From NCBI GenBank assembly GCA_017412705.1, contig JAFPWS010000069.1, positions 1 through 58,917 on the forward strand: a stretch of 58,917 nucleotides of DNA. Reading direction: 5' to 3'. Position numbers and translations under genes: made by a program. The number at the start of each line of letters is the position of its first letter. Position 1 is the stretch's first letter. This document shows positions 41,658-53,753 of this stretch, piece after piece. The DNA comes from Prevotella sp. GTDB lineage: Bacteria > Bacteroidota > Bacteroidia > Bacteroidales > Bacteroidaceae. A model generated the notes under the pieces. That model was not told the origin of the DNA and did no database searches. It saw only the letters and a program-made list of their open reading frames with translations.

Positions 41658-41697
41658 AGAGAGGCTGCAAAAGAATTTGCGGCTTCTTTTTTTGTTT
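41658..41697 (+). terminator. Rho-independent terminator after the L28-L33 unit
   Basis: GAGGCTGCAAA (41661-41671) and TTTGCGGCTTC (41676-41686) pair with two G-T wobbles across a 4-base loop, followed by a long T-rich run. It lies 19 bases after the DUF4295 stop. Confidence 0.8.
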
Positions 41698-41714
41698 TTT
41701 TGCTTACTTATTCG

Positions 41715-41722
41715 TAACTTTG
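41715..41722 (+). promoter_or_regulatory. Promoter of ftsY-rimO-HU unit (-7 element)
   Basis: TAACTTTG, exact consensus, with only 8 bases to the ftsY ATG at 41731, so the leader is expected to be a few bases at most. Confidence 0.65.
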
Positions 41723-41730
41723 CACTCGTT

Positions 41731-42690
41731 ATGGGTATTTTTGGTTTCTTTAATAAGGATAAAAAGCAAACGCTGGACAAGGGTCTTGAAAAGACAAAGA
41801 CCAGCGTGTTCGACAAGCTGGCACGTGCCGTAGCCGGTAAGTCGAAGGTAGATGACGATGTTCTCGACAACCTGGAGGAGGTGCTGATAACTTCTGATGT
41901 AGGAGTGGAGACAACGCTGAAGATTATTGAGCGTATTGAAGAGCGTGTGGCTCGAGACAAGTATGTGTCAACCAGTGAGCTGGATGCCATTCTGCGCGAT
42001 GAGATTGCCTCGCTGTTGGCAGAAAACAATAGCGAGGATAATGAAAACTGGGATTTGCCCAGTGACCATAAGCCTTACGTCATACTCGTAGTGGGTGTGA
42101 ATGGGGTAGGTAAGACCACCACCATAGGCAAGCTGGCTTGGCAGTTCAAGCAGGCAGGCAAGAAGGTCTATCTGGGGGCTGCCGACACCTTCCGTGCTGC
42201 TGCTGTGGAGCAGCTGTGCATCTGGGGTGAGCGGGTAGGCGTTCCTGTTGTCAAGCAGCAGATGGGCTCAGACCCTGCCTCGGTGGCTTTCGACACTTTG
42301 CAGAGTGCCAAGGCCAATGGTGCCGACGTAGTGCTGATTGATACGGCAGGCCGTTTGCATAATAAGGTGGGTCTGATGAACGAGTTGAAGAAAATCAAGG
42401 AGGTCATGAAGAAAGTGCTGCCCGAGGCTCCCGACGAAGTGATGCTTGTACTGGACGGCTCTACGGGACAGAACGCTTTTGAACAGGCCAAGCAGTTCTC
42501 TGCTGTTACGCAGATTACCTCGTTGGCTATTACAAAGCTTGACGGAACCGCCAAGGGCGGTGTAGTCATCGGCATCTCTGATCAGCTGAAGGTGCCAGTC
42601 AAGTATATCGGGCTGGGTGAAGGCATGAAAGACTTGCAGCTCTTCAATAAGACACAGTTCGTGGACTCTTTGTTCAAGAAAGACGAATGA
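41731..42690 (+). CDS. ftsY: Signal recognition particle receptor FtsY
   Basis: SRP receptor GTPase that docks ribosome-SRP complexes at the membrane. The 319-residue protein has the N domain (about 10-105), and the NG GTPase with [15 protein letters not shown] near 123, [35 protein letters not shown] and the closing KYIGLGEG. It lacks the long acidic A domain of E. coli FtsY, which is common in this phylum. Starting at 41731 avoids the terminator and promoter read by the longer frame. It overlaps rimO by ATGA. Confidence 0.97.
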
Positions 42691-43985
42691 ATAAGCCCAC
42701 CATAGATATTATTACCTTAGGATGCTCGAAGAACCTTGTCGACAGCGAGATGTTGATGGGACTCTTTGAAACTCACGGCTATCGTGTTACCCACGATTCG
42801 GAGAATCCGCAGGGGGGGATAGCGGTGGTAAATACCTGTGGCTTTATTGAGGATGCCAAACAAGAGAGCATCAATACTATTCTGGAGTTTGCACAGGCCA
42901 AGGAGGAGGGACGACTAAAGAAACTCTTTGTAATGGGCTGTCTGTCGGAACGCTATTTGGCCGATTTGGAGAAAGAAATTCCGGAAGTTGACGGGTGGTA
43001 TGGAAAATTTAACTATAAAAGGCTCTTAGAGGATTTGGATGACCAGTTGTCTCCCCAAGAGGCCTGGCGTCATATCACCACTCCTCGCCATTATGCTTAT
43101 CTGAAGATTAGTGAGGGCTGTGACCGTCATTGCGCCTACTGTGCCATACCGCTTATTACGGGTCGTCACCAAAGCCGTCCTATGCAGGAGATTCTGGATG
43201 AGGTACGTTGGCTGGTCAGCCAGGGTACGAAAGAGTTCCAGGTCATTGCCCAGGAGTTGACCTACTATGGTGTGGATATTGATGGCAGGCAGCATATAGC
43301 AGAACTCATAGAGCAGATGGCAGATATAGAGGGTGTTGAGTGGATTCGTCTGCACTACGCCTATCCTGCCCACTTCCCTTGGGAACTGCTAAGGGTGATG
43401 CGTGAGAAGAAGAATGTGTGCAACTATCTGGACATTGCCCTGCAGCACATCTCCGACCATATGCTGGGTCGTATGCAACGCCATGTGACCAAGGATGAGA
43501 CCTATGAACTGATTCAGAAGATGCGTCGAGAGGTACCGGGCATCCACCTGCGTACTACGCTGATGGTGGGTTTCCCTGGTGAGACTGAAGAGGACTTTAA
43601 AGAGTTGATAGAGTTTACTAAGTGGGCACGCTTTGAGCGTATGGGAGCCTTTGCCTATAGTGAGGAAGACGGTACCTATAGTGCCCAGCACTATGAAGAC
43701 GATGTTCCTCAGGAGGTGAAGCAACAGCGCTTGGACAAGCTGATGCGGGTGCAACAGAATATTTCCGCTGAGATAGAGGCAGCCAAGATAGGGCAGACGC
43801 TTCGCGTCGTCATAGACCGTATGGAGGGCGACTGGTATGTAGGACGTACGGAGTTCTGCTCGCCAGAGGTAGACCCGGAGGTGTTGCTGCCTGCCAGTGA
43901 GGCGCTGAAAATCGGTGAGTTCTATGAGGCTCGCATAACGGATGCAGAAGAATTTGATTTATACGCCACAACGAAATATGAATAA
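42687..43985 (+). CDS. rimO: Ribosomal protein S12 methylthiotransferase RimO
   Basis: Radical-SAM enzyme that methylthiolates an aspartate of ribosomal protein S12. The 432-residue protein has the N-terminal UPF0004 domain with Cys in LGCSKNLVDSE, NTCGFIEDA and MGCLSER, the radical-SAM cluster C145-x3-C149-x2-C152 (CDRHCAYC) and the C-terminal TRAM domain. The motif CSKNLVDSE distinguishes RimO from MiaB. Overlaps ftsY by 4 bases and the HU gene by 8. Confidence 0.97.
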   Translation: MNKPTIDIITLGCSKNLVDSEMLMGLFETHGYRVTHDSENPQGGIAVVNTCGFIEDAKQESINTILEFAQAKEEGRLKKLFVMGCLSERYLADLEKEIPEVDGWYGKFNYKRLLEDLDDQLSPQEAWRHITTPRHYAYLKISEGCDRHCAYCAIPLITGRHQSRPMQEILDEVRWLVSQGTKEFQVIAQELTYYGVDIDGRQHIAELIEQMADIEGVEWIRLHYAYPAHFPWELLRVMREKKNVCNYLDIALQHISDHMLGRMQRHVTKDETYELIQKMRREVPGIHLRTTLMVGFPGETEEDFKELIEFTKWARFERMGAFAYSEEDGTYSAQHYEDDVPQEVKQQRLDKLMRVQQNISAEIEAAKIGQTLRVVIDRMEGDWYVGRTEFCSPEVDPEVLLPASEALKIGEFYEARITDAEEFDLYATTKYE

Positions 43986-44259
43986 CAAGGAATTTATTGC
44001 CGAACTGGCTGAGCGCACAGGGTATAGTATGAAGGATACCCAGAAGTTGGTGAACAATGTCATCAACGCTATGGGCGATGCTTTTCAGGAAGACAATAGT
44101 GTGCTTGTGCCTAACTTCGGAACCTTCGAGGCGAAGAAGAAAATGGAGCGTGTCATCATTAATCCTTCTACGGGCCAGCGTATGCTGGTGCCACCGAAAC
44201 TGGTGCTTAACTTCAAACCCAATCAGACCTGGAAGGATAAATTGAAAGGAGGCCAATAA
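43978..44259 (+). CDS. HU-family DNA-binding protein
   Basis: A 93-residue protein of the HU/IHF fold: helical N terminus (MNNKEFIAELAERTGYSMKD), then VPNFGTFEAKKK and the DNA-binding beta arm with the conserved INPSTGQRM. Start chosen at 43978 because the fold starts there and the overlap with rimO is then only 8 bases. The next gene, 2 bases later, also begins with an HU-like domain, so the two may form heterodimers. Confidence 0.92.
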   Translation: MNNKEFIAELAERTGYSMKDTQKLVNNVINAMGDAFQEDNSVLVPNFGTFEAKKKMERVIINPSTGQRMLVPPKLVLNFKPNQTWKDKLKGGQ

Positions 44260-44261
44260 CG

Positions 44262-45368
44262 ATGGGGAAGTTGACGATACAAGATATAGCTGCCATTCTC
44301 GTCGAAAAGAATGGCTTTGACAAGCGTGATGCCAATAAGTTTGCCTATGCCATGTTTGCTTTGATACAGGAACGGCTGGAGACAGACCAATTGGTGAAAG
44401 TTAAGGGGTTGGGTACCTTTAAGATTGTTGATGTGGAGGCTCGTGAGAGTGTCAGCGTCCGTACAGGTGAGCGTGTCACTATCAGTGGTCATGCCAAGGT
44501 GTCTTTCACTCCCGATGCTACGATGAAGGAATTGGTAAACAGGCCTTTCTCGCAGTTTGAGACTGTAGTGTTGAATGAGGGCGTCGAGTTTGAGGATATG
44601 AAGGATGAAGAGGAGCCAGAGTCAGAACTTGCCCCGAATGAAGAGCCAAAGCAACCTGAGGAACTTGTTGCGACAGAGGAGTATATAGGAGAGGAGAAGC
44701 CAGTAATAACGGAAGACCTAGTATTAGTTGAAGAGAAACCTGTATTAGTAGAAGAGCCTGTTGTGGCAGATGAGCCAGCCATTGAAATAGAAGATGACGA
44801 GGAAGAAACGCGTCCTTGGGGACGTTGGATTCTGACAGCCCTCGGGGTGCTGGTCTTGATGGCGCTTTCGGCTTGGGGAGGCTATTATTATGGTAGCCGG
44901 CAAGTTGCATCTTCCCTCGCTACTGTTCCCGATACGGTGGTAGTACATGATACGATAAAGGCAGTTCCTGCTGATACAATGCCTTCTCTGAAGGATGAGC
45001 CAGACGCCGAGCCTACAAGGCTGGAGCCTGCTACGGAGGCAGCAAAGGTTGAACCTATAGCAAGCCCGTCTAAGTCAGATGCCAAGCCTGCTAAGGCAGA
45101 GCCGAAGGAGGAGGCTAAGCTTGAGTCTGTTGACAAATATGCTCAGAAGGATGCCCGTGTCCGCTTGGGCGCCTATCGTATTGTGGGGCTTGACCATGAG
45201 GTGAAGGTACAGCCAGGCCAGACTTTCTATAGTATCTGTCGAGGTAATCTGGGACCGGATATGGAATGTTACGTCGAAGTATTCAATGATTTGCCGCAGA
45301 ATCCGAAAATTAAGGAGGGGCAGATTATTAAGATTCCTAAGCTTCAATTGAAGAAAAGGAAGAAGTAA
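44262..45368 (+). CDS. HU-like domain / transmembrane / LysM fusion protein
   Basis: The 368-residue protein starts with an HU/IHF-like domain (about 1-92; LTIQDIAAILVEKNGF, VKVKGLGTFKIV and an arm region around VRTGERVTISGHAKV), continues with a Glu/Pro-rich acidic linker (about 105-185), one membrane helix (about 190-212, ILTALGVLVLMALSAWGG), an Ala/Lys/Pro-rich linker (about 230-300) and a C-terminal LysM-like domain (about 311-363, VKVQPGQTFYSICRGNLG to IIKIPKL). Topology predicts the DNA-binding domain in the cytoplasm and LysM, a peptidoglycan-binding fold, in the periplasm. Two bases after the HU gene; a terminator follows. Function is not established; a nucleoid-to-wall tether is inference. 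Confidence 0.85.
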   Translation: MGKLTIQDIAAILVEKNGFDKRDANKFAYAMFALIQERLETDQLVKVKGLGTFKIVDVEARESVSVRTGERVTISGHAKVSFTPDATMKELVNRPFSQFETVVLNEGVEFEDMKDEEEPESELAPNEEPKQPEELVATEEYIGEEKPVITEDLVLVEEKPVLVEEPVVADEPAIEIEDDEEETRPWGRWILTALGVLVLMALSAWGGYYYGSRQVASSLATVPDTVVVHDTIKAVPADTMPSLKDEPDAEPTRLEPATEAAKVEPIASPSKSDAKPAKAEPKEEAKLESVDKYAQKDARVRLGAYRIVGLDHEVKVQPGQTFYSICRGNLGPDMECYVEVFNDLPQNPKIKEGQIIKIPKLQLKKRKK

Positions 45369-45385
45369 ATACCAACAATAAAATG

Positions 45386-45425
45386 AAAGTTTCCTAAAAT
45401 ATAAGTTTTGGGAAACTTTTTTAAT
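45386..45425 (+). terminator. Rho-independent terminator after the HU/LysM gene
   Basis: AAAGTTTCC (45386-45394) and GGAAACTTT (45411-45419) form a 9-base stem followed by a T-run, 18 bases after the stop. Confidence 0.8.
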
Positions 45426-45514: not shown

Positions 45515-46510
45515 ATGGCAGAAGCTATTGACATCCGTGAGTTGAATATCCGGATAGAACAACAAAGTGGATTCGTGACCAATCTTGTGACGGGTATGGA
45601 TCAGGTAATTGTAGGACAGAAACACTTAGTAGACTCGTTGCTGATAGGTCTTTTGAGTGACGGAAACATCCTGCTGGAAGGCGTTCCTGGATTGGCTAAG
45701 ACATTGGCAATCAAGACACTGTCTCAGTTGATAGATGCAACCTACAGTCGTATTCAGTTTACTCCAGATCTGTTGCCTGCTGACGTGACAGGTACGATGA
45801 TTTATTCGCAGAAAGAGGAGAAATTCCAAGTTAAGAAAGGTCCTGTTTTTGCCAACTTCGTGCTGGCTGATGAAATCAACCGTGCCCCAGCCAAGGTGCA
45901 GAGTGCCTTGCTTGAGGCCATGCAGGAGAAGCAGGTGACTATTGGTTCTGATACCTTCGACCTGCCTAATCCCTTCCTTGTGATGGCTACGCAGAACCCC
46001 ATCGAGCAGGAGGGTACTTATCCGCTGCCAGAGGCACAGATGGACCGTTTCATGTTGAAGGTGGTCATTGGTTATCCTACCATTGATGAGGAGAAGAAGA
46101 TTATTCGTGAGAATATTGGTGGCGGACTGCCCAAGGTAAGTCCTGTCACAACAGCAGCCGAGATTGTCAAGGCTCGTGAGGTGGTCCGTGAGGTGTATTT
46201 GGACGAGAAGATAGAGCAGTACATTGCCGATATCGTCTTCGCCACCCGCTATCCTGACAAGTATGGTCTGAAGGATATGAAGGAGATGATTTCGTTTGGT
46301 GGCTCGCCCCGTGCTTCCATCAATTTGGCTAAGGCAGCCCGTGCCTATGCATTTATCAAGCGTCGCGGCTATGTGGTGCCAGAGGATGTGCGTGCTGTGG
46401 CTCACGACGTGCTACGTCACCGTATTGGTCTGACCTATGAGGCTGAGGCTTCTAACGTCACCAGTGAGGAAATCGTCTCGAAGATTATCAACAAGGTGGA
46501 AGTGCCTTGA
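45515..46510 (+). CDS. MoxR-family AAA+ ATPase of the bat operon
   Basis: A 331-residue AAA+ ATPase that is thought to act as a chaperone with VWA-domain proteins. Seen: Walker A EGVPGLAKT, Walker B VLADEINRAP, the MATQNPIEQEGTYPLPEAQ sensor region and the C-terminal lid with GGSPRASINL. It heads the unit MoxR-DUF58-BatX/BatD-like-BatA-BatBC-BatDE, the same order as in Bacteroides fragilis, where the bat genes affect oxygen tolerance. Confidence 0.95.
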   Translation: MAEAIDIRELNIRIEQQSGFVTNLVTGMDQVIVGQKHLVDSLLIGLLSDGNILLEGVPGLAKTLAIKTLSQLIDATYSRIQFTPDLLPADVTGTMIYSQKEEKFQVKKGPVFANFVLADEINRAPAKVQSALLEAMQEKQVTIGSDTFDLPNPFLVMATQNPIEQEGTYPLPEAQMDRFMLKVVIGYPTIDEEKKIIRENIGGGLPKVSPVTTAAEIVKAREVVREVYLDEKIEQYIADIVFATRYPDKYGLKDMKEMISFGGSPRASINLAKAARAYAFIKRRGYVVPEDVRAVAHDVLRHRIGLTYEAEASNVTSEEIVSKIINKVEVP

Positions 46511-46527
46511 TACATTGAACTTTGAAG

Positions 46528-47397
46528 ATGGAAACATCTGAAATACTCAAGAAAGTACGGAAGATAGAGATTAAGGCTCGTGGCCTGAGCTCAAATGTCT
46601 TCGCGGGGCAATACCATTCAGCCTTTAAGGGCAGGGGTATGGCCTTCAGCGAGGTGCGTGAGTATCAGTATGGCGACGATGTGCGAGATATAGACTGGAA
46701 TGTTACAGCCCGCTTCCATCGTCCCTATGTCAAGGTCTTTGAGGAGGAGCGTGAGCTGACTGTCATGCTGCTGATAGATGTCAGCGGCTCGTTAGACTTC
46801 GGCACACAACGCCAGATGAAGCGCGACATGGTGACAGAGATTGCTGCTACGCTGGCTTTCTCGGCTATCCAGAACAATGATAAGATAGGTGTGGTGTTTT
46901 TCTCAGACCGTATAGAGAAGTATATCCCTCCCAAGAAAGGCCGCAAGCACATCCTCTATATCATCCGTGAGATGCTTGACTTCAAGCCAGAGTCGAAGCG
47001 TACTGATGTTAAGCAGGCGCTGGAGTTTCTGACCAGTGTGTCGAAACGTCGTTGTACGGCTTTTGTGCTCAGCGACTTCTACGACCGACAGAACTTTCTG
47101 CAACCTCTGCAGATAGCTAACCGCAAGCATGATGTGGTGGCATTGCAGGTCTATGACATCCGTGCCCGTGAGTTACCTGATGTCGGCTTGGTACGAGTGG
47201 TTGATGCTGAGACAGGCTATGAGCAGTACATCGATACCTCGAGTAAACGACTACGCCAGGCCCATGAGAAGTATTGGCGCCAGTGTCAGGAACAACTGCG
47301 CGAGACGATGAATAAGAGTAATGTCGATTTGGTAAGTATTGCTACAAATGAAGACTATGTGAAGGCGCTGCTGATACTGTTTAAACAGAGAAGTTGA
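46528..47397 (+). CDS. DUF58 protein of the bat operon
   Basis: A 289-residue protein of the DUF58 family, with the FKGRGMAFSEVREYQYGDDVR core preceding the DIDWNVTARF motif (here shown in two parts) and a degenerate VWA-like domain (DVSGSLDFG, the MIDAS-like D-x-S-x-S). Start at ATG 46528; the frame can be extended to a TTG at 46522. It sits 17 bases behind the MoxR gene; the stop overlaps the next ATG (TGATG). Confidence 0.93.
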   Translation: METSEILKKVRKIEIKARGLSSNVFAGQYHSAFKGRGMAFSEVREYQYGDDVRDIDWNVTARFHRPYVKVFEEERELTVMLLIDVSGSLDFGTQRQMKRDMVTEIAATLAFSAIQNNDKIGVVFFSDRIEKYIPPKKGRKHILYIIREMLDFKPESKRTDVKQALEFLTSVSKRRCTAFVLSDFYDRQNFLQPLQIANRKHDVVALQVYDIRARELPDVGLVRVVDAETGYEQYIDTSSKRLRQAHEKYWRQCQEQLRETMNKSNVDLVSIATNEDYVKALLILFKQRS

Positions 47398-48440
47398 TGA
47401 AAAGAACTGCAATATTTATAATTCTGATAGCCAGTGTCTTGTCGATATTTGCGCAAGCCAGTGTTCAGGCAAAGATTGACCCGATAGAGATGATGATTGG
47501 CGAGCATGCCACCGTCACGCTTACCGTGCAGGCACCAGACGATGCAAAGGTTGAATGGCCTGTACTGCAGGCACGCCAGATACTCATGCCCGGAGTGGAG
47601 GTGATTAACTCCCACCATCCTGACAGTCGTACGATGACCATCGTACTGACTTCCTTTGATGGCAATCTTTATCCGCTGCCAGCCTTCAAGGTGAAGGTTA
47701 ATGGCAAGGAACTGAAAACGACAGAGTTGGCGTTGAAGGTGATAGAGATGGAGGTGGACACGACGCAGACGAATAAGTTCTTCGGTCCCAAGGATGTGCA
47801 GGACAATCCGTTCCAGTGGAGTGACTGGGCGCTGTCGTTCTGGCTTAGCATCCTGATGTTGGTGCTGATAGCCCTGTGCTATTACCTTTATCTGCGGCTG
47901 CGTGACAACAAGCCCATCATCACTACCATTAAGATAGTGAAGCGCTTGCTGCCTCATCAGAAGGCCATGCAGGAGATAGAACAGATCAAGGCCGACAAGA
48001 TGGTGACTGCTGAGAATCCGAAGGAATACTACACCAAGCTGACTGATACATTGCGCAAGTATATTGAGGAGCGCTATGGTTTCTCGGCTATGGAGATGAC
48101 CAGTACCGAGATTATTGAGCGCCTGATGTCTACAGGAGACCAGCAGTCTTTGGATGAGCTGCGCCAACTGTTTACTACTGCCGACCTCGTGAAGTTCGCA
48201 AAGTATTCGACGATGATTAATGAGAACGATGCCAACTTGGTGAATGCCATCGACTTCATCAATCAGACGAAACAGGAGAACCAGCCTGTTGAGGAGGTGC
48301 AGAAACCTGTGCTTTCAGAGGCTGACCAGCGTTCGCAAAAAGAACGTCGTGTCCTAAAGCTGATTATCTGGGGCATTTCTGCAGTTACGGTAGTACTGTT
48401 CTGCTATATTGTCTATAGTGTTTATGTGCTAATAGTTTAG
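47397..48440 (+). CDS. Bat operon membrane protein (unnamed, between DUF58 and BatA)
   Basis: The 347-residue protein has a signal peptide (about 1-20), a beta-rich domain similar to the start of BatD-like proteins (IGEHATVTLTVQAPDD, ~30-120), a membrane helix (about 150-172), a cytoplasmic helical region (KEYYTKLTDTLRKYIEERY, which resembles the small domain at the BatD C terminus) and a last membrane helix (about 322-345). Its position between DUF58 and batA is standard for Bacteroidales. Start at 47397, overlapping the previous stop by one base. Role within Bat is unknown. Confidence 0.83.
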   Translation: MKRTAIFIILIASVLSIFAQASVQAKIDPIEMMIGEHATVTLTVQAPDDAKVEWPVLQARQILMPGVEVINSHHPDSRTMTIVLTSFDGNLYPLPAFKVKVNGKELKTTELALKVIEMEVDTTQTNKFFGPKDVQDNPFQWSDWALSFWLSILMLVLIALCYYLYLRLRDNKPIITTIKIVKRLLPHQKAMQEIEQIKADKMVTAENPKEYYTKLTDTLRKYIEERYGFSAMEMTSTEIIERLMSTGDQQSLDELRQLFTTADLVKFAKYSTMINENDANLVNAIDFINQTKQENQPVEEVQKPVLSEADQRSQKERRVLKLIIWGISAVTVVLFCYIVYSVYVLIV

Positions 48441-48447
48441 AAAGAGA

Positions 48448-49446
48448 ATGGAATTTGCCAATAAAGAATATCTGTTGCTGCTCCTGTTGCTGATACCTTA
48501 TATAATATGGTATCTGATGTACAGGAAGAAGAGCGAGCCCTCGATGCGAATGAGCGATACCAATGTCTATCGCTTTGCGCCTCGTTCGTGGAAGGTGGCA
48601 CTCATGCCCCTACAGCCCTTGCTGCGTATGGCAGTCTTTGTGCTGGTAGTGCTGGTGCTGGCTCGTCCTCAGACACAGAACTCATGGAAGAACCAGACTG
48701 TTGAGGGTATCGATATCATGCTGGCTATGGACGTGTCTACCTCTATGCTGGCAGAAGACCTGAAGCCTAATCGTATTGAGGCTGCGAAGCAGGTAGCTGC
48801 AGAGTTTATCACAGGACGCCCCAATGATAATATAGGCTTGAGTATCTTTGCCGGTGAGGCCTTTACCCAGTGTCCTATGACCACAGACCATGCTTCACTG
48901 CTGAACTTGCTGCAAGGAGTGCGTACCGATATTGCTGCCCGTGGCTTGATAGAAGATGGTACGGCTATCGGTATGGGACTGGCCAATGCGGTTAGTCGTC
49001 TGAAGGACTCGAAGGCCAAGAGTCGTGTGGTCATCCTGCTGACGGATGGTTCTAACAACCGTGGTGACTTGTCACCTATGACAGCTGCCGAGATAGCCAA
49101 GAGTCTGGGCATTCGCGTCTATACCATTGGCGTGGGCACCAACAAGGTGGCTCCATATCCCATGCAGGTGGGTGGGGGAGTGCAGTATGTCAATATCCCT
49201 GTCGAGATTGACACCAAGACACTTAATGAGATAGCTTTGGCTACCGATGGCGACTTCTATCGTGCCACCAACAACCGTGAGCTGCAGAATATCTATAAGG
49301 AGATTGACAAGCTGGAGAAGTCGAAGTTGAATGTCAAGAAGTTCAGCAAGAAGTACGAGGCCTATCAGCCTTTCGCCCTTGCTGCTGCCTTGCTGTTGCT
49401 GCTGGAAATCCTGCTCAGAATAACCATATTCAGAAAACTACCGTAA
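48448..49446 (+). CDS. batA: BatA, VWA-domain protein
   Basis: The 332-residue protein has two N-terminal membrane helices (about 5-20 and 55-75), a VWA domain (about 88-280) with the MIDAS motif DVSTSMLAED and the threonine/aspartate positions in LTDGSNNRGD, and a C-terminal helix (about 308-326). Such proteins form oligomers in the membrane facing the periplasm. Four bases separate it from the BatB-BatC fusion. Confidence 0.93.
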   Translation: MEFANKEYLLLLLLLIPYIIWYLMYRKKSEPSMRMSDTNVYRFAPRSWKVALMPLQPLLRMAVFVLVVLVLARPQTQNSWKNQTVEGIDIMLAMDVSTSMLAEDLKPNRIEAAKQVAAEFITGRPNDNIGLSIFAGEAFTQCPMTTDHASLLNLLQGVRTDIAARGLIEDGTAIGMGLANAVSRLKDSKAKSRVVILLTDGSNNRGDLSPMTAAEIAKSLGIRVYTIGVGTNKVAPYPMQVGGGVQYVNIPVEIDTKTLNEIALATDGDFYRATNNRELQNIYKEIDKLEKSKLNVKKFSKKYEAYQPFALAAALLLLLEILLRITIFRKLP

Positions 49447-49450
49447 CATC

Positions 49451-51145
49451 ATGTTTAGATTTGAAGACCCTATATACCTCTATCTGTTAGCAGCCATCCC
49501 GTTGCTATTCGTCATCCGTTGGTTGATGGTACGCCAGCAGAAGAAACGTCTGCGTCGGTTTGGCGACCCTGAGTTGGTGCGCCAACTGATGCCTGATGTG
49601 TCTCGCTTCCGTCCTGCTGTCAAGTTCTGGCTGCTGCTGGGGGCACTGGCTTTGCTCATCGTCATGTTGGCTCGTCCGCAGATGGGTACCAAGATTAGTC
49701 ATGAGAAGCGAACAGGTATTGAGACCATCATCTGTATGGACATCAGTAATTCGATGCTGGCTGAGGATGTGACACCCAGTCGTTTGGATCGTGCCAAGAT
49801 GATGGTTGAGAACTTGGTTGACCACTTCAACAACGATAAAATAGGTCTGATAGTCTTTGCAGGCGATGCCTTTGTGCAATTGCCCATTACCAGCGACTAT
49901 GTCAGTGCCAAGATGTTCCTGTCGAGTATCGACCCGTCGATGATTGCCACCCAGGGAACAGACATTGCCGCTGCCATCACGATGGCCTCGCATAGCTTTA
50001 CCCAGCAGGAAGGTGTAGGCAAGGCTATCATCGTCATTACCGATGGTGAGGATCATGAGGGTGGTGCCATGGAGGCTGCAAAGGAAGCTAATGAGAAAGG
50101 CATGCGAACCTATGTCTTAGGTGTTGGCTCACCTAACGGAGCTCCCATCCCGACAGGCAATGGCGACTATCTGAAGGATAATAGTGGTCAGACCGTTATG
50201 ACAGGCCTGAATGAGGAGATGTGTCGTCAGCTGGCTGATGCCGGTAGTGGTGCCTATATTCATGTCGAGAACAATAGCAATGCTCAGGACCAGCTGGACA
50301 ATGAACTTGACAAGCTGGCCAAGAAGGAGATATCGTCTACCATCTATAGCGACTACGACGAACAGTTTCAGGCAGTAGGCATCATCGTCGTGCTGTTGCT
50401 TATCCTTGAAGTATGCATCCTTGAAATCAAGAACCCGATGCTGAAAAACATCTCTCTGTTCCGTCGTACTCCTAAGGCTGCTGCTACCATGCTGTTGCTG
50501 CTGTTAGCCATAGGTGCCCAGGCCCAGACCGACCGTCTGCTGGTGCGTCAGGGCAACAAACAGTTCCGAAAGGGCAATGCTGCCGATGCAGAGGTGTCGT
50601 ATCGCAAGGCTGTGGAGAAGAACCAGCGTAATCCGCAGGCTAACTACAACTTGGGCAATGCCCTGATGCAGCAGCGCAAGGACTCGCTGGCTACCGTCCA
50701 GTTCCAGAATGCTGCCAAGATGGAAACCAATCCGTTGCGTCGTGCTCAGGCTTATCACAACATTGGTGTCATCTGTCAGCAGCATCAGATGTTTAGTGAG
50801 GCTATTGAGGCTTATAAGGAGGCTCTGCGCAACAATCCTACTGACGACGAGACACGCTATAACCTGGAGCTTTGTAAGCGCCAGCAACAACAGCAGAACC
50901 AGGATCAACAGAATCAGGATCAGAAGAATAAGGACAAGGACAAGCAAGATCAGCAGAAGCAAGACCAGGATAAGAAGGACAAGCAGAAGCAGAATCAGGA
51001 AAAGCAGCCAGACAAGCAGCAGATGAGCAAGGAGAATGCCGAGCAGTTGCTGAATGCTGCCATGCAGGAAGAAAAAAACACTCAGGAGCGTATGAAGAAG
51101 GCCCAGCAACAGCCTCAGCGTCGTCGTCTGGAGAAGAATTGGTAA
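49451..51145 (+). CDS. BatB-BatC fusion: VWA domain followed by TPR domain
   Basis: The 564-residue protein joins a BatB-like part (about 1-330: two helices, VWA domain with MIDAS DISNSMLAED, C-terminal helix about 305-325) to a BatC-like part. At about 345-358 a hydrophobic stretch ending IGAQAQ looks like a former signal peptide. TPR units follow (about 360-470) and the tail (about 478-540) is made of Gln, Asp, Lys and Asn. In Bacteroides, BatB and BatC are separate proteins. No internal stop or frameshift is seen, so the fusion is genuine in this sequence. Confidence 0.9.
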   Translation: MFRFEDPIYLYLLAAIPLLFVIRWLMVRQQKKRLRRFGDPELVRQLMPDVSRFRPAVKFWLLLGALALLIVMLARPQMGTKISHEKRTGIETIICMDISNSMLAEDVTPSRLDRAKMMVENLVDHFNNDKIGLIVFAGDAFVQLPITSDYVSAKMFLSSIDPSMIATQGTDIAAAITMASHSFTQQEGVGKAIIVITDGEDHEGGAMEAAKEANEKGMRTYVLGVGSPNGAPIPTGNGDYLKDNSGQTVMTGLNEEMCRQLADAGSGAYIHVENNSNAQDQLDNELDKLAKKEISSTIYSDYDEQFQAVGIIVVLLLILEVCILEIKNPMLKNISLFRRTPKAAATMLLLLLAIGAQAQTDRLLVRQGNKQFRKGNAADAEVSYRKAVEKNQRNPQANYNLGNALMQQRKDSLATVQFQNAAKMETNPLRRAQAYHNIGVICQQHQMFSEAIEAYKEALRNNPTDDETRYNLELCKRQQQQQNQDQQNQDQKNKDKDKQDQQKQDQDKKDKQKQNQEKQPDKQQMSKENAEQLLNAAMQEEKNTQERMKKAQQQPQRRRLEKNW

Positions 51146-51185
51146 AATGGCAGGCTTAAGCCTAATTATAAATAAGAAATACAGA

Positions 51186-53753
51186 ATGATGATGAGATTG
51201 CGATATATATTATTTATTGTTTTTTCTTTATTCATTAGCCATGTTATGGCACAGACGCTTACTGGTCGTGCCCCAGGGCAGGTTGCCGTGGGGGAGCAGT
51301 TCCGTCTGAGCTATACCGTCAATACTGACGATGCTAAGGGTTTTCGTACAGGCAACATCCCTGATGCCTTCGACGTGTTGATGGGGCCTTCGACGTCTAC
51401 GCAGTCGAGTTTCCAGATGGTAAATGGCCATATGTCGAGCTCGGCCAGCATTACCTATACCTACATTCTCTCAGCAACCAAGCAGGGCTCATTTACTATT
51501 CCCGCAGCCCATGTGACGGTTGACGGCAAGAATGTGTCGTCTAACGAGGTACATATCAAGGTGGCTGGTGAAGTGAAGAATGGCCAGCAGGGCCATCAGC
51601 AGCAGAGCAGTACGGGTGAGGTTCGTGCTGCAGGCTCTGCCATTTCAGGCAGCGACCTCTTCATCAAGGTGACGGCCTCTAAGCAACATGTTCGTGAACA
51701 GGAGCCTATCCTCTTGACTTACAAGGTATATACCTTAGTGGGACTGACCCAACTCAATGGTAAGATGGCCGACCTGAAGAGTTTCTATACTCGAGAAGTG
51801 CCCTTGCCTCAGGAGAAGCAGTTTAAAGTGGAGATGTTGAACGGGAAGCCTTATCGTACTGTCACATGGCAACAGTACGTCATGTTCCCCCAGGCTACTG
51901 GTAAGCTCGAGGTGCCCAGCCTGACCTATGAGGGCATCGTTGTGCAGCAGAACCGCAATGTAGACCCCTTCGAGGCTTTCTTTAACGGAGGGTCAGGCTA
52001 TGTGGAGGTCAAGAAGCAGATCAAGGCTCCTGGCATTACCATCCAGGTAGACCCGTTGCCTCAGCGTCCTGCCAATTTCTCTGGTGGAGTGGGTAAATAC
52101 AGTATTTCTGCTACCATCGACCAAAAGGAAGTTAAGGCCAACGACCCCATCAAGTTGCGTGTCGTGGTGAGTGGCTCAGGTAACATGAAGCTGTTGAAGC
52201 AGCCAGAGGTGAAATTCCCCAAGGATTTCGACCACTATGACGCCAAGGTTACTGACAAGACCCAGCTGACTACCAATGGCTTGGAGGGCAGCATCATCTA
52301 CGACTTTCTGGCTGTGCCTCGCCATCAGGGAACCTATGAGATTCCTGCCATTGAGTATACTTATTTCGATACGCAGTCCAATCAGTATAAGACTGTCAAG
52401 TCAGAATCCTTCACACTCCAAGTAGCCAAGGGTAGTGGCTCGTCGAGTGCCGCCTATACTGGTCAGGAAGACATCAAACAACTGAACAGCGACATTCACT
52501 ATATTAAGACAGGCAGCACCCGTCAACATGCTGTCGGCGACTTTTTCTTCGGCTCTACGGAGTATTGGGTGACTCTGGCTGTGCTGTTTCTGGGTTTTGT
52601 CTCCCTGTTTGTAATCTTCCGTCAGCGTGCCATAGAACGTGCCGATGTGGTGAAACAGCGTGCCGGCAAGGCCAACAAGGTGGCTGCCAAACGTCTCAAG
52701 AAGGCAGCAAAGCTGATGAAAGCTGGCCGGCAGGGCGAGTTCTACGACGAGGTGCTTCGTGCCTTGTGGGGCTATTTGGGTGATAAGCTTAACCTGCCTG
52801 TAGAGCAGCTTTCCCGTGAGAATATCAGTCAGCAGCTGGCCGGGCGTAACGTCTCTGAGGAGACCATTCAACAGTTCCTGTGTGCATTGGACGAGTGCGA
52901 ATATGCCCGCTATGCTCCTGGTGATGCTAAAGGAAACATGAATAAAGTTTATGATATGGCAATGACTGCCATCACACAGATTGCCACGACGATGAAGAAA
53001 AACCGTCCTGCCAAGCAGCGTGCAGTCTTGCTGTTACTACTGTTCTTGCCTTTGAGTGCCGGTGCAGTCACCAAGGCTGAGGCTGACAGTTCTTATGTAC
53101 ATGAGAACTATCAGCAGGCTGCCAAGCAGTACGAGACTTTGCTGAAGCAGGGGGTCTCGGCAGACATCTACTACAACCTGGGAAACTGCTATTATCGCAT
53201 GGACAACATGACGCTGGCAGTGCTGAACTACGAGCGTGCCCTGCTATTGTCGCCCGGCGACAAGGACATCCGCTTCAACCTGCAGATGGCTCGTTCGAAA
53301 ACCATTGACAAGATTACCCCTGAGTCGGAGATGTTCTTTGTCACGTGGTATCGTTCACTGGTCAATCTGCAGAGTGTCGATGCCTGGGCTCGTCTGGCTC
53401 TTGTCGCCTTGGCAGTAGCCATCGTGCTGGCTTTGGCCTACCTCTTTGCAGACCGTATTTGGTTGCGTAAAGTAGGCTTCTTCGGAGCTGCTGGCCTGTT
53501 GCTTGTATTTCTAGTAAGCAATCTCTTTGCCTGGCAGCAGAAGCGTGGATTGGACCATCGTACGGGAGCGGTCGTCATCCGTTCAGCCGTCAATGTCAAG
53601 AGCACGCCGTCGAAGAACGGCACGGACCTCTTTATCCTGCATGAAGGCACTCGTGTCACCATTACTGACAACACGATGAAGGGTTGGAAGGAGATTCGCG
53701 TGGCCGATGGCAAGCAGGGCTGGCTGGAAACCAAGGAGATAGAAGTGATTTAG
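51186..53753 (+). CDS. BatD-BatE fusion: oxygen-tolerance protein with TPR and SH3-like C terminus
   Basis: The protein starts with a signal peptide (LRYILFIVFSLFISHVMA) and a BatD-like region of Ig-like domains up to about residue 455, a membrane helix (about 456-478), a helical region, then at about 612-627 a second signal-peptide-like stretch (AVLLLLLFLPLSAGA). TPR units (about 638-701), two membrane helices (about 733-755 and 761-781) and an SH3-like domain (about 791-855) follow, as in BatE. The frame is open from an ATG at 51147, directly after the BatB-C stop; 51186 is preferred because a signal peptide then starts at once. Positions are counted from 51186. Confidence 0.88.
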   Translation: MMMRLRYILFIVFSLFISHVMAQTLTGRAPGQVAVGEQFRLSYTVNTDDAKGFRTGNIPDAFDVLMGPSTSTQSSFQMVNGHMSSSASITYTYILSATKQGSFTIPAAHVTVDGKNVSSNEVHIKVAGEVKNGQQGHQQQSSTGEVRAAGSAISGSDLFIKVTASKQHVREQEPILLTYKVYTLVGLTQLNGKMADLKSFYTREVPLPQEKQFKVEMLNGKPYRTVTWQQYVMFPQATGKLEVPSLTYEGIVVQQNRNVDPFEAFFNGGSGYVEVKKQIKAPGITIQVDPLPQRPANFSGGVGKYSISATIDQKEVKANDPIKLRVVVSGSGNMKLLKQPEVKFPKDFDHYDAKVTDKTQLTTNGLEGSIIYDFLAVPRHQGTYEIPAIEYTYFDTQSNQYKTVKSESFTLQVAKGSGSSSAAYTGQEDIKQLNSDIHYIKTGSTRQHAVGDFFFGSTEYWVTLAVLFLGFVSLFVIFRQRAIERADVVKQRAGKANKVAAKRLKKAAKLMKAGRQGEFYDEVLRALWGYLGDKLNLPVEQLSRENISQQLAGRNVSEETIQQFLCALDECEYARYAPGDAKGNMNKVYDMAMTAITQIATTMKKNRPAKQRAVLLLLLFLPLSAGAVTKAEADSSYVHENYQQAAKQYETLLKQGVSADIYYNLGNCYYRMDNMTLAVLNYERALLLSPGDKDIRFNLQMARSKTIDKITPESEMFFVTWYRSLVNLQSVDAWARLALVALAVAIVLALAYLFADRIWLRKVGFFGAAGLLLVFLVSNLFAWQQKRGLDHRTGAVVIRSAVNVKSTPSKNGTDLFILHEGTRVTITDNTMKGWKEIRVADGKQGWLETKEIEVI

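Follow-up and report, generated by a model that had tools for sequence, protein, structure and literature searches.

A predicted inner-membrane HU-LysM protein and its adjacent plain HU partner in Prevotella and related bacteria

Burroughs and colleagues reportedly described, in 2017, a set of Bacteroidetes proteins with the layout HU-CCDC81_bac/TM/SPOR (PF18174, PF18175; TM, transmembrane helix), which offer a precedent for the locus analysed here. That locus lies in a 58,917-nucleotide stretch of Prevotella sp. DNA (contig JAFPWS010000069.1, assembly GCA_017412705.1), referred to below as the window, and consists of a gene for a predicted HU-TM-LysM protein (44262..45368, forward strand, 368 residues) and, directly upstream of it, a gene for a plain HU protein (43978..44259, forward strand, 93 residues; PF00216, E 1.4e-24), whose start codon at 43978 was our choice. 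Like the HU-LysM pair, the CCDC81-type proteins have two HU-type halves, one membrane helix and a C-terminal wall-type domain, and the second of their HU domains is the one that best resembles the HU domain tethered to the membrane in the HU-LysM protein. They differ in that they end in a SPOR-like domain and hold both HU domains in one armless chain, whereas the HU-LysM protein has a LysM end. The window protein gave no match to PF18175 (HU-CCDC81_bac), although weak matches were found in 28 of 38 family members (best E 1.8e-6), and there was no SPOR family among its Pfam matches, the C-terminus having a LysM fold. The HU-LysM architecture parallels that of the HU-CCDC81/TM/SPOR proteins, which occur in the same bacteria.

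Related systems are also found for the separate parts. IHF, a soluble protein with an intercalating proline on both arms, is an alpha/beta heterodimer that has the HU fold in common with the tethered HU domain and provided its best profile and fold matches; NCBIfam IHF equivalog scores for the window protein were below cut-off. IHF is built from two unlike subunits, and the same would be true of the HU-LysM pair if it forms a heterodimer. The LysM domain of the T. thermophilus NlpC/P60 endopeptidase (4uz2, 4uz3) is likewise among the closest known systems. The family itself may already have a name. We take the authors of the HU clade paper PMC5683647 to be Kamashev et al. (2017). Passages of that paper define a clade, HU_bacL, of HU proteins from Bacteroidetes whose C-terminal part is long (238 residues on average), charged and rich in Glu, and LysM, membrane and peptidoglycan have 0 occurrences in its main text (PMC5683647). 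The tails of the 69 distinct HU-LysM proteins collected below resemble these in length and composition, with a mean of 315 residues (48 E, 23 K, 20 D and 9 R). On those passages, the HU_bacL clade is probably the HU-LysM family, named without its membrane or LysM parts. No further use of the name HU_bacL was found among Creative Commons-licensed PMC papers, and in the same literature no study of the HU-LysM protein was found except the HU clade paper, although work elsewhere is possible. The passages searched of PMC13114119 and PMC10434189 contained nothing clearly on the HU-LysM protein; those of the latter list a B. thetaiotaomicron LysM protein and an HU family protein as single table lines.

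The architecture of the window protein is sound and conserved, and the order of parts given in the first-pass annotation (HU/IHF-like domain, acidic linker, one membrane helix, linker, LysM) was borne out by domain, fold and profile matches. The tethered HU/IHF-like domain occupies residues 3-98 (44268..44555) and matched PF00216 above the curated cut-off. It runs into a conserved motif, VN(K/R)PFSQFETVVLN(D/E)GVEF (residues 92-110, 44535..44591), in which N93, P95 and F96 were invariant in 38/38 family members; in a wider set (n = 37) N93 was again invariant, with P95 and F96 at 90% or more. An acidic, presumably cytoplasmic linker follows (residues 111-185, 44592..44816), with a mean charge of -0.27 per residue over the 69 proteins and low confidence in the predicted structure (predicted local distance difference test score, pLDDT, below 50 over most of its length). 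The single membrane helix (residues about 186-218, 44817..44915) had a Kyte-Doolittle peak of 1.83 at residue 189 and a pLDDT of 70-94 by blocks of ten; peaks of about 1.5 or more were present in 69/69 family proteins. A flexible, presumably periplasmic linker (residues 219-290, 44916..45131; ten-residue blocks past residue 220 have a pLDDT of about 45-53) leads to the LysM fold (residues 305-363, 45174..45350). PF01476 scored 12 bits on the window protein, below the curated cut-off of 20.9, and it matched 19/38 of the family when E values up to 0.1 were allowed; Pfam alone being insufficient for the window protein, the LysM call rests on the fold assigned to its C-terminus, on phmmer and on relatives. 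That the protein is built as HU domain, membrane helix and LysM domain is almost certain, with the folds and the helix as predictions. Conservation ruled out a chance open reading frame at 44262-45368. A Cys326-Cys336 disulfide was considered and dropped, Cys326 occurring in 48% and Cys336 in 90% of the 69 proteins.

Topology was judged from the lysine and arginine residues flanking the helix. The side preceding the helix was the richer one in 44 of the 69 proteins, the two sides were equal in 17, and the preceding side was the poorer one in 8; across the order the corresponding numbers were 51, 8 and 5 of 64. Since positive residues are richer before the helix, the N terminus is likely inside, with a cytoplasmic HU domain, as had been proposed, and a periplasmic LysM domain.

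We then asked how far the HU-LysM gene and its plain HU neighbour are kept together. Matches were found in 25 of 40 genomes in a sample of relatives, some via the plain HU only, and a collection of named genomes added 51 loci, titled Prevotella, Prevotellaceae, Segatella or Hoylesella. In all, 76 loci had frames similar to the window protein, and removal of 7 duplicates left 69 distinct proteins, a Prevotella-centred set. A separate plain HU gene lay directly upstream of the HU-LysM gene at 68 of these 69 loci; at the remaining one, L020, both HU domains are in one chain. A search of 296 genomes of the order with alignment A3 gave a match reaching the LysM part in a long frame in at least 62 (the window's included), and the 94 order loci reduced to 64 distinct long proteins, a count that includes the window protein. 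Fifty-five of the 64 had a separate plain HU directly upstream, and only one (L216) lacked the partner. In the other eight (L198, L205, L206, L207, L209, L215, L219 and L220), both HU domains were fused in one frame with the membrane helix and LysM domain; the tethered arm was lost or degenerate in 8/8, and a proline was present at the arm tip of the first HU domain in L220 only. A quick tree with 75 rows, several armless ones among them on long branches, put HU-HU fusion at a minimum of four changes. When neighbouring genes fuse repeatedly, this classically points to products that associate physically.

More distant samples gave fewer full-length matches. Among 119 genomes of the class, these came from four, the window's and three others of its order, and the other 115 had none among the matches listed (ordered by E-value); in several class genomes, for example G478, G209 and G198, the match covered just the linker and LysM part. 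Of 61 genomes sampled across the phylum, the window's own and the five of family code f182, which belongs to another class, matched both parts. All three f182 loci read (L232, L233 and L234) had the same two-gene HU pair. The 8-9 kb surrounding it at these three loci gave no ftsY, rimO or moxR match; the pair therefore stays together without that neighbourhood. Because both HU domains are fused in 8/64 proteins and the pair persists in f182 without ftsY-rimO, the conserved unit is, on comparative grounds, the pair of HU domains and not a single protein. The earlier interpretation is supported in part: the order of domains, the single helix, the likely N-in orientation and the coupling to a plain HU and to ftsY-rimO stand.

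The first-pass annotation had also put the gene forward as its best candidate for an undescribed system, for which the CCDC81-type proteins are a precedent. Of 80 genomes of the class, 63 had a PF18175 (HU-CCDC81_bac_2) match above cut-off; in the window's genus the figure was 58 of 60. PF18175 also matched 6 of 14 control genomes, 1 of them above cut-off, and at least some of the other control matches were weak and from unrelated bacteria such as E. coli, as expected of HU proteins. PF18175 was missing from the window's genome, an absence not taken as real given that the assembly is 86% complete and nearly all genomes of the genus have the family. From 30 CCDC81-type loci fetched, 29 proteins were read (L125 was missed by the length filter). 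Their frames were 329-484 residues long, a hydrophobic segment was present in 28/29 at the threshold used, and the C-terminal end was SPOR-like, as judged by eye without a SPOR model, so that those read have a tandem-HU/TM/SPOR-like layout. An alignment of 20 of them showed two armless HU-like halves. In hhalign comparisons the second half scored 52.8 against the tethered HU, 43.8 against a generic HU and 34.8 against the plain HU profile, and the first half 27.9 against the plain partner (weak, probability 55%), 25.8 against the tethered and 21.5 against the generic one. Only the match of the second half is discriminating, because the plain profile used as query scored both halves alike (33.4 and 33.1). 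In two genomes of the window's genus (G009 and G019) the HU-LysM gene and a CCDC81-HU/SPOR-like gene are convergent neighbours (L208: 4733-5791 and 6572-7765; L209: 4781-6010 and 6608-7633). We read the two kinds of protein as two versions of one architecture.

These observations suggest a mechanism in which the products of the two adjacent genes would be the subunits of an HU/IHF-like heterodimer. The free subunit would be the plain HU, with its arm-tip proline (Pro63) kept, and the other would be held in the inner membrane through a single helix and carry a LysM domain in the periplasm. Contact with DNA would be made mainly through the arm of the free subunit and contact with peptidoglycan through the LysM domain, and the complex would probably serve to keep the nucleoid at the envelope or to sense it there, for instance in positioning or segregating the chromosome with growth and division. 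Heterodimerization of the plain and tethered HU is quite probable, because the pairing or fusion of the two HU domains is conserved. For the whole mechanism, a membrane-anchored IHF-like heterodimer with a periplasmic LysM domain linking chromosome and wall, our support is tentative and leans slightly towards doubt.

Several features of the protein weigh against such a link, at its DNA end as well as at its wall end. Both HU and IHF have an intercalating proline at the arm tip. Intercalating prolines at arm tips are also mentioned in passages of the clade paper (PMC5683647). On alignment to IHF, Val66 (44457-44459) takes the place of this proline in the tethered HU; across the 69 proteins the position holds V 65 times and I 3 times, with one gap. 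The mean net charge of the tethered HU is +1.6 (+2 in the window protein), compared with +4.1 for the 67 partners extracted. Among 63 pairs or fusions scored by motif search and by our own reading of missed or misread rows (L216, having no partner, was left out), the tethered arm was lost or degenerate in 17, and arm loss, like proline loss, required at least five changes on the tree. Because the arm is lost or degenerate in these 17, DNA bending is apparently dispensable in them. With the proline gone, the charge near neutral and the arm repeatedly lost, simple DNA tethering looks uncertain, and the claim that this protein holds the chromosome is unproven and weakened. The same substitution of V or I in 68/69, the near-neutral charge, and the loss of the arm while the N-x-P-F motif is well kept across the wider set favour the main rival explanation, in which the two HU domains serve for protein-protein contact and bring a cytoplasmic partner, perhaps from the division or elongation machinery, to the LysM-anchored protein, with a ligand other than DNA in most members today. 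CCDC81 HU domains, the second of which resembles the tethered HU, have reportedly been proposed as modules of this type. Against such an adaptor stand the 46/63 pairs in which the tethered arm is of full length and the partner retains its arm-tip proline, and the strong conservation of the partner arm, in which P63 (67/67), R58 and K54 were all conserved at 1.00; partners without the proline were seen outside the 67 extracted, in L020 (fused) and L021 (as in L209 and L208, respectively; L020 and L209 are from the same genome). In addition, one clade of the order (L102, L203, L221 and L222) and f182 (L232-L234) retain N-P at the tethered arm tip, and DNA binding by both arms was for this reason probably ancestral. 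The partner proline was kept in 46/46 pairs with an intact tethered arm and in 2/17 with a lost or degenerate one, a suggestive agreement that would fit two arms acting together. It amounts to 2 independent pairs on supported branches and 5 on all branches, which is not significant, and given the small number on supported branches no statistical correlation between losing the arm and losing the proline is claimed. On balance we regard the adaptor explanation as somewhat unlikely.

At the other end of the protein, wall binding by the LysM domain is plausible and not firmer than that, because a profile search against solved structures found Kbp and tail-type LysM proteins beside wall-related ones. 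The fold and profile matches thus include LysM domains that are not wall binders, from injection-system or phage tail proteins and from Kbp, and in the fold search injection-system LysM chains ranked slightly above wall-enzyme LysM. The Prevotella LysM has also lost residues conserved in other rows: W at position 335 is present in 60/63 other rows and 0/12 Prevotella rows, with L208 and L209, of the window's genus, placed among the 63. At residues 330-340 (45249-45281 of the window) Prevotella has LGPDMECYVEV where other families have YYGxxxFWVYIYExNK, and this Prevotella-specific stretch may hint at a changed LysM ligand. One alternative is that the LysM domain does not bind the wall, or that the topology is reversed, leaving an HU protein with a membrane tail and a LysM domain used for assembly or ion binding, as in Kbp and tail proteins. 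Another is a one-component envelope sensor, in which the LysM domain senses the state of the wall or muropeptides and the membrane-held HU pair alters DNA architecture and transcription nearby. HU/IHF proteins shape promoters, and the anatomy of a sensor would be the same; against it, no link to particular target genes was seen, and the long low-confidence linkers on either side of the helix make signal transfer hard. The slightly higher rank of the injection-system chains led us to weight the former up and the latter down; we consider the sensor improbable and the non-wall LysM or reversed topology a shade more so. For the favoured chromosome-wall link itself, our literature searches found no binding, localization or phenotype data on the HU-LysM protein.

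The first-pass annotation had placed the gene 2 bases from the plain HU gene and coupled it to ftsY-rimO, and this arrangement recurs. In the window rimO (42687..43985, forward strand; named after that annotation) overlaps the plain HU gene, and ftsY (41677..42690, forward strand, start codon uncertain) overlaps rimO by 4 bases. A rimO-like gene was upstream at 68 of the 69 loci, and ftsY was present in all 48 loci from genome contigs, the remaining 21/69 having too little flank. Directly 3' of the HU-TM-LysM gene is a terminator-like stem of 16 pairs (45385..45420, forward strand; a consensus match only). Beyond it, at 45515-53753, are genes that we take, by eye, to be moxR, DUF58 and Bat-type genes; moxR was downstream within the available flank at 33/69 loci, and moxR/DUF58/Bat-like genes were also 3' of the pair in about half of 20 loci read. 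L216, which lacks the plain HU partner, has the HU-LysM gene (L216:952-2064, reverse strand) immediately after a rimO-like gene, and the HU-LysM protein there retains the arm but not the N-x-P-F motif. The f182 pair faces a gene resembling HemW by eye.

To our knowledge, how Bacteroidota position and segregate their chromosomes relative to the growing wall is poorly understood. CCDC81-type tandem HU proteins include eukaryotic centrosomal ones. A broader reading, which we hold as speculative and rather unlikely, is that the phylum has an ancient system of two dedicated genes. Their products would form a split IHF-like heterodimer, anchored in the membrane, and physically couple nucleoid to peptidoglycan beside the fused CCDC81-HU/SPOR version, and repeated HU fusion with arm loss would mark a possible route to CCDC81-type tandem HU proteins. 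A DNA-protein fold and a wall-type fold joined across the inner membrane would give a direct handle on chromosome positioning in abundant gut bacteria, and the partner HU yields a clear, testable prediction, that of an anchored heterodimer. The parallel SPOR protein suggests that two such envelope links may coexist, and the repeated fusions and arm losses bear on how HU domains may have shifted from DNA binders to protein adaptors.
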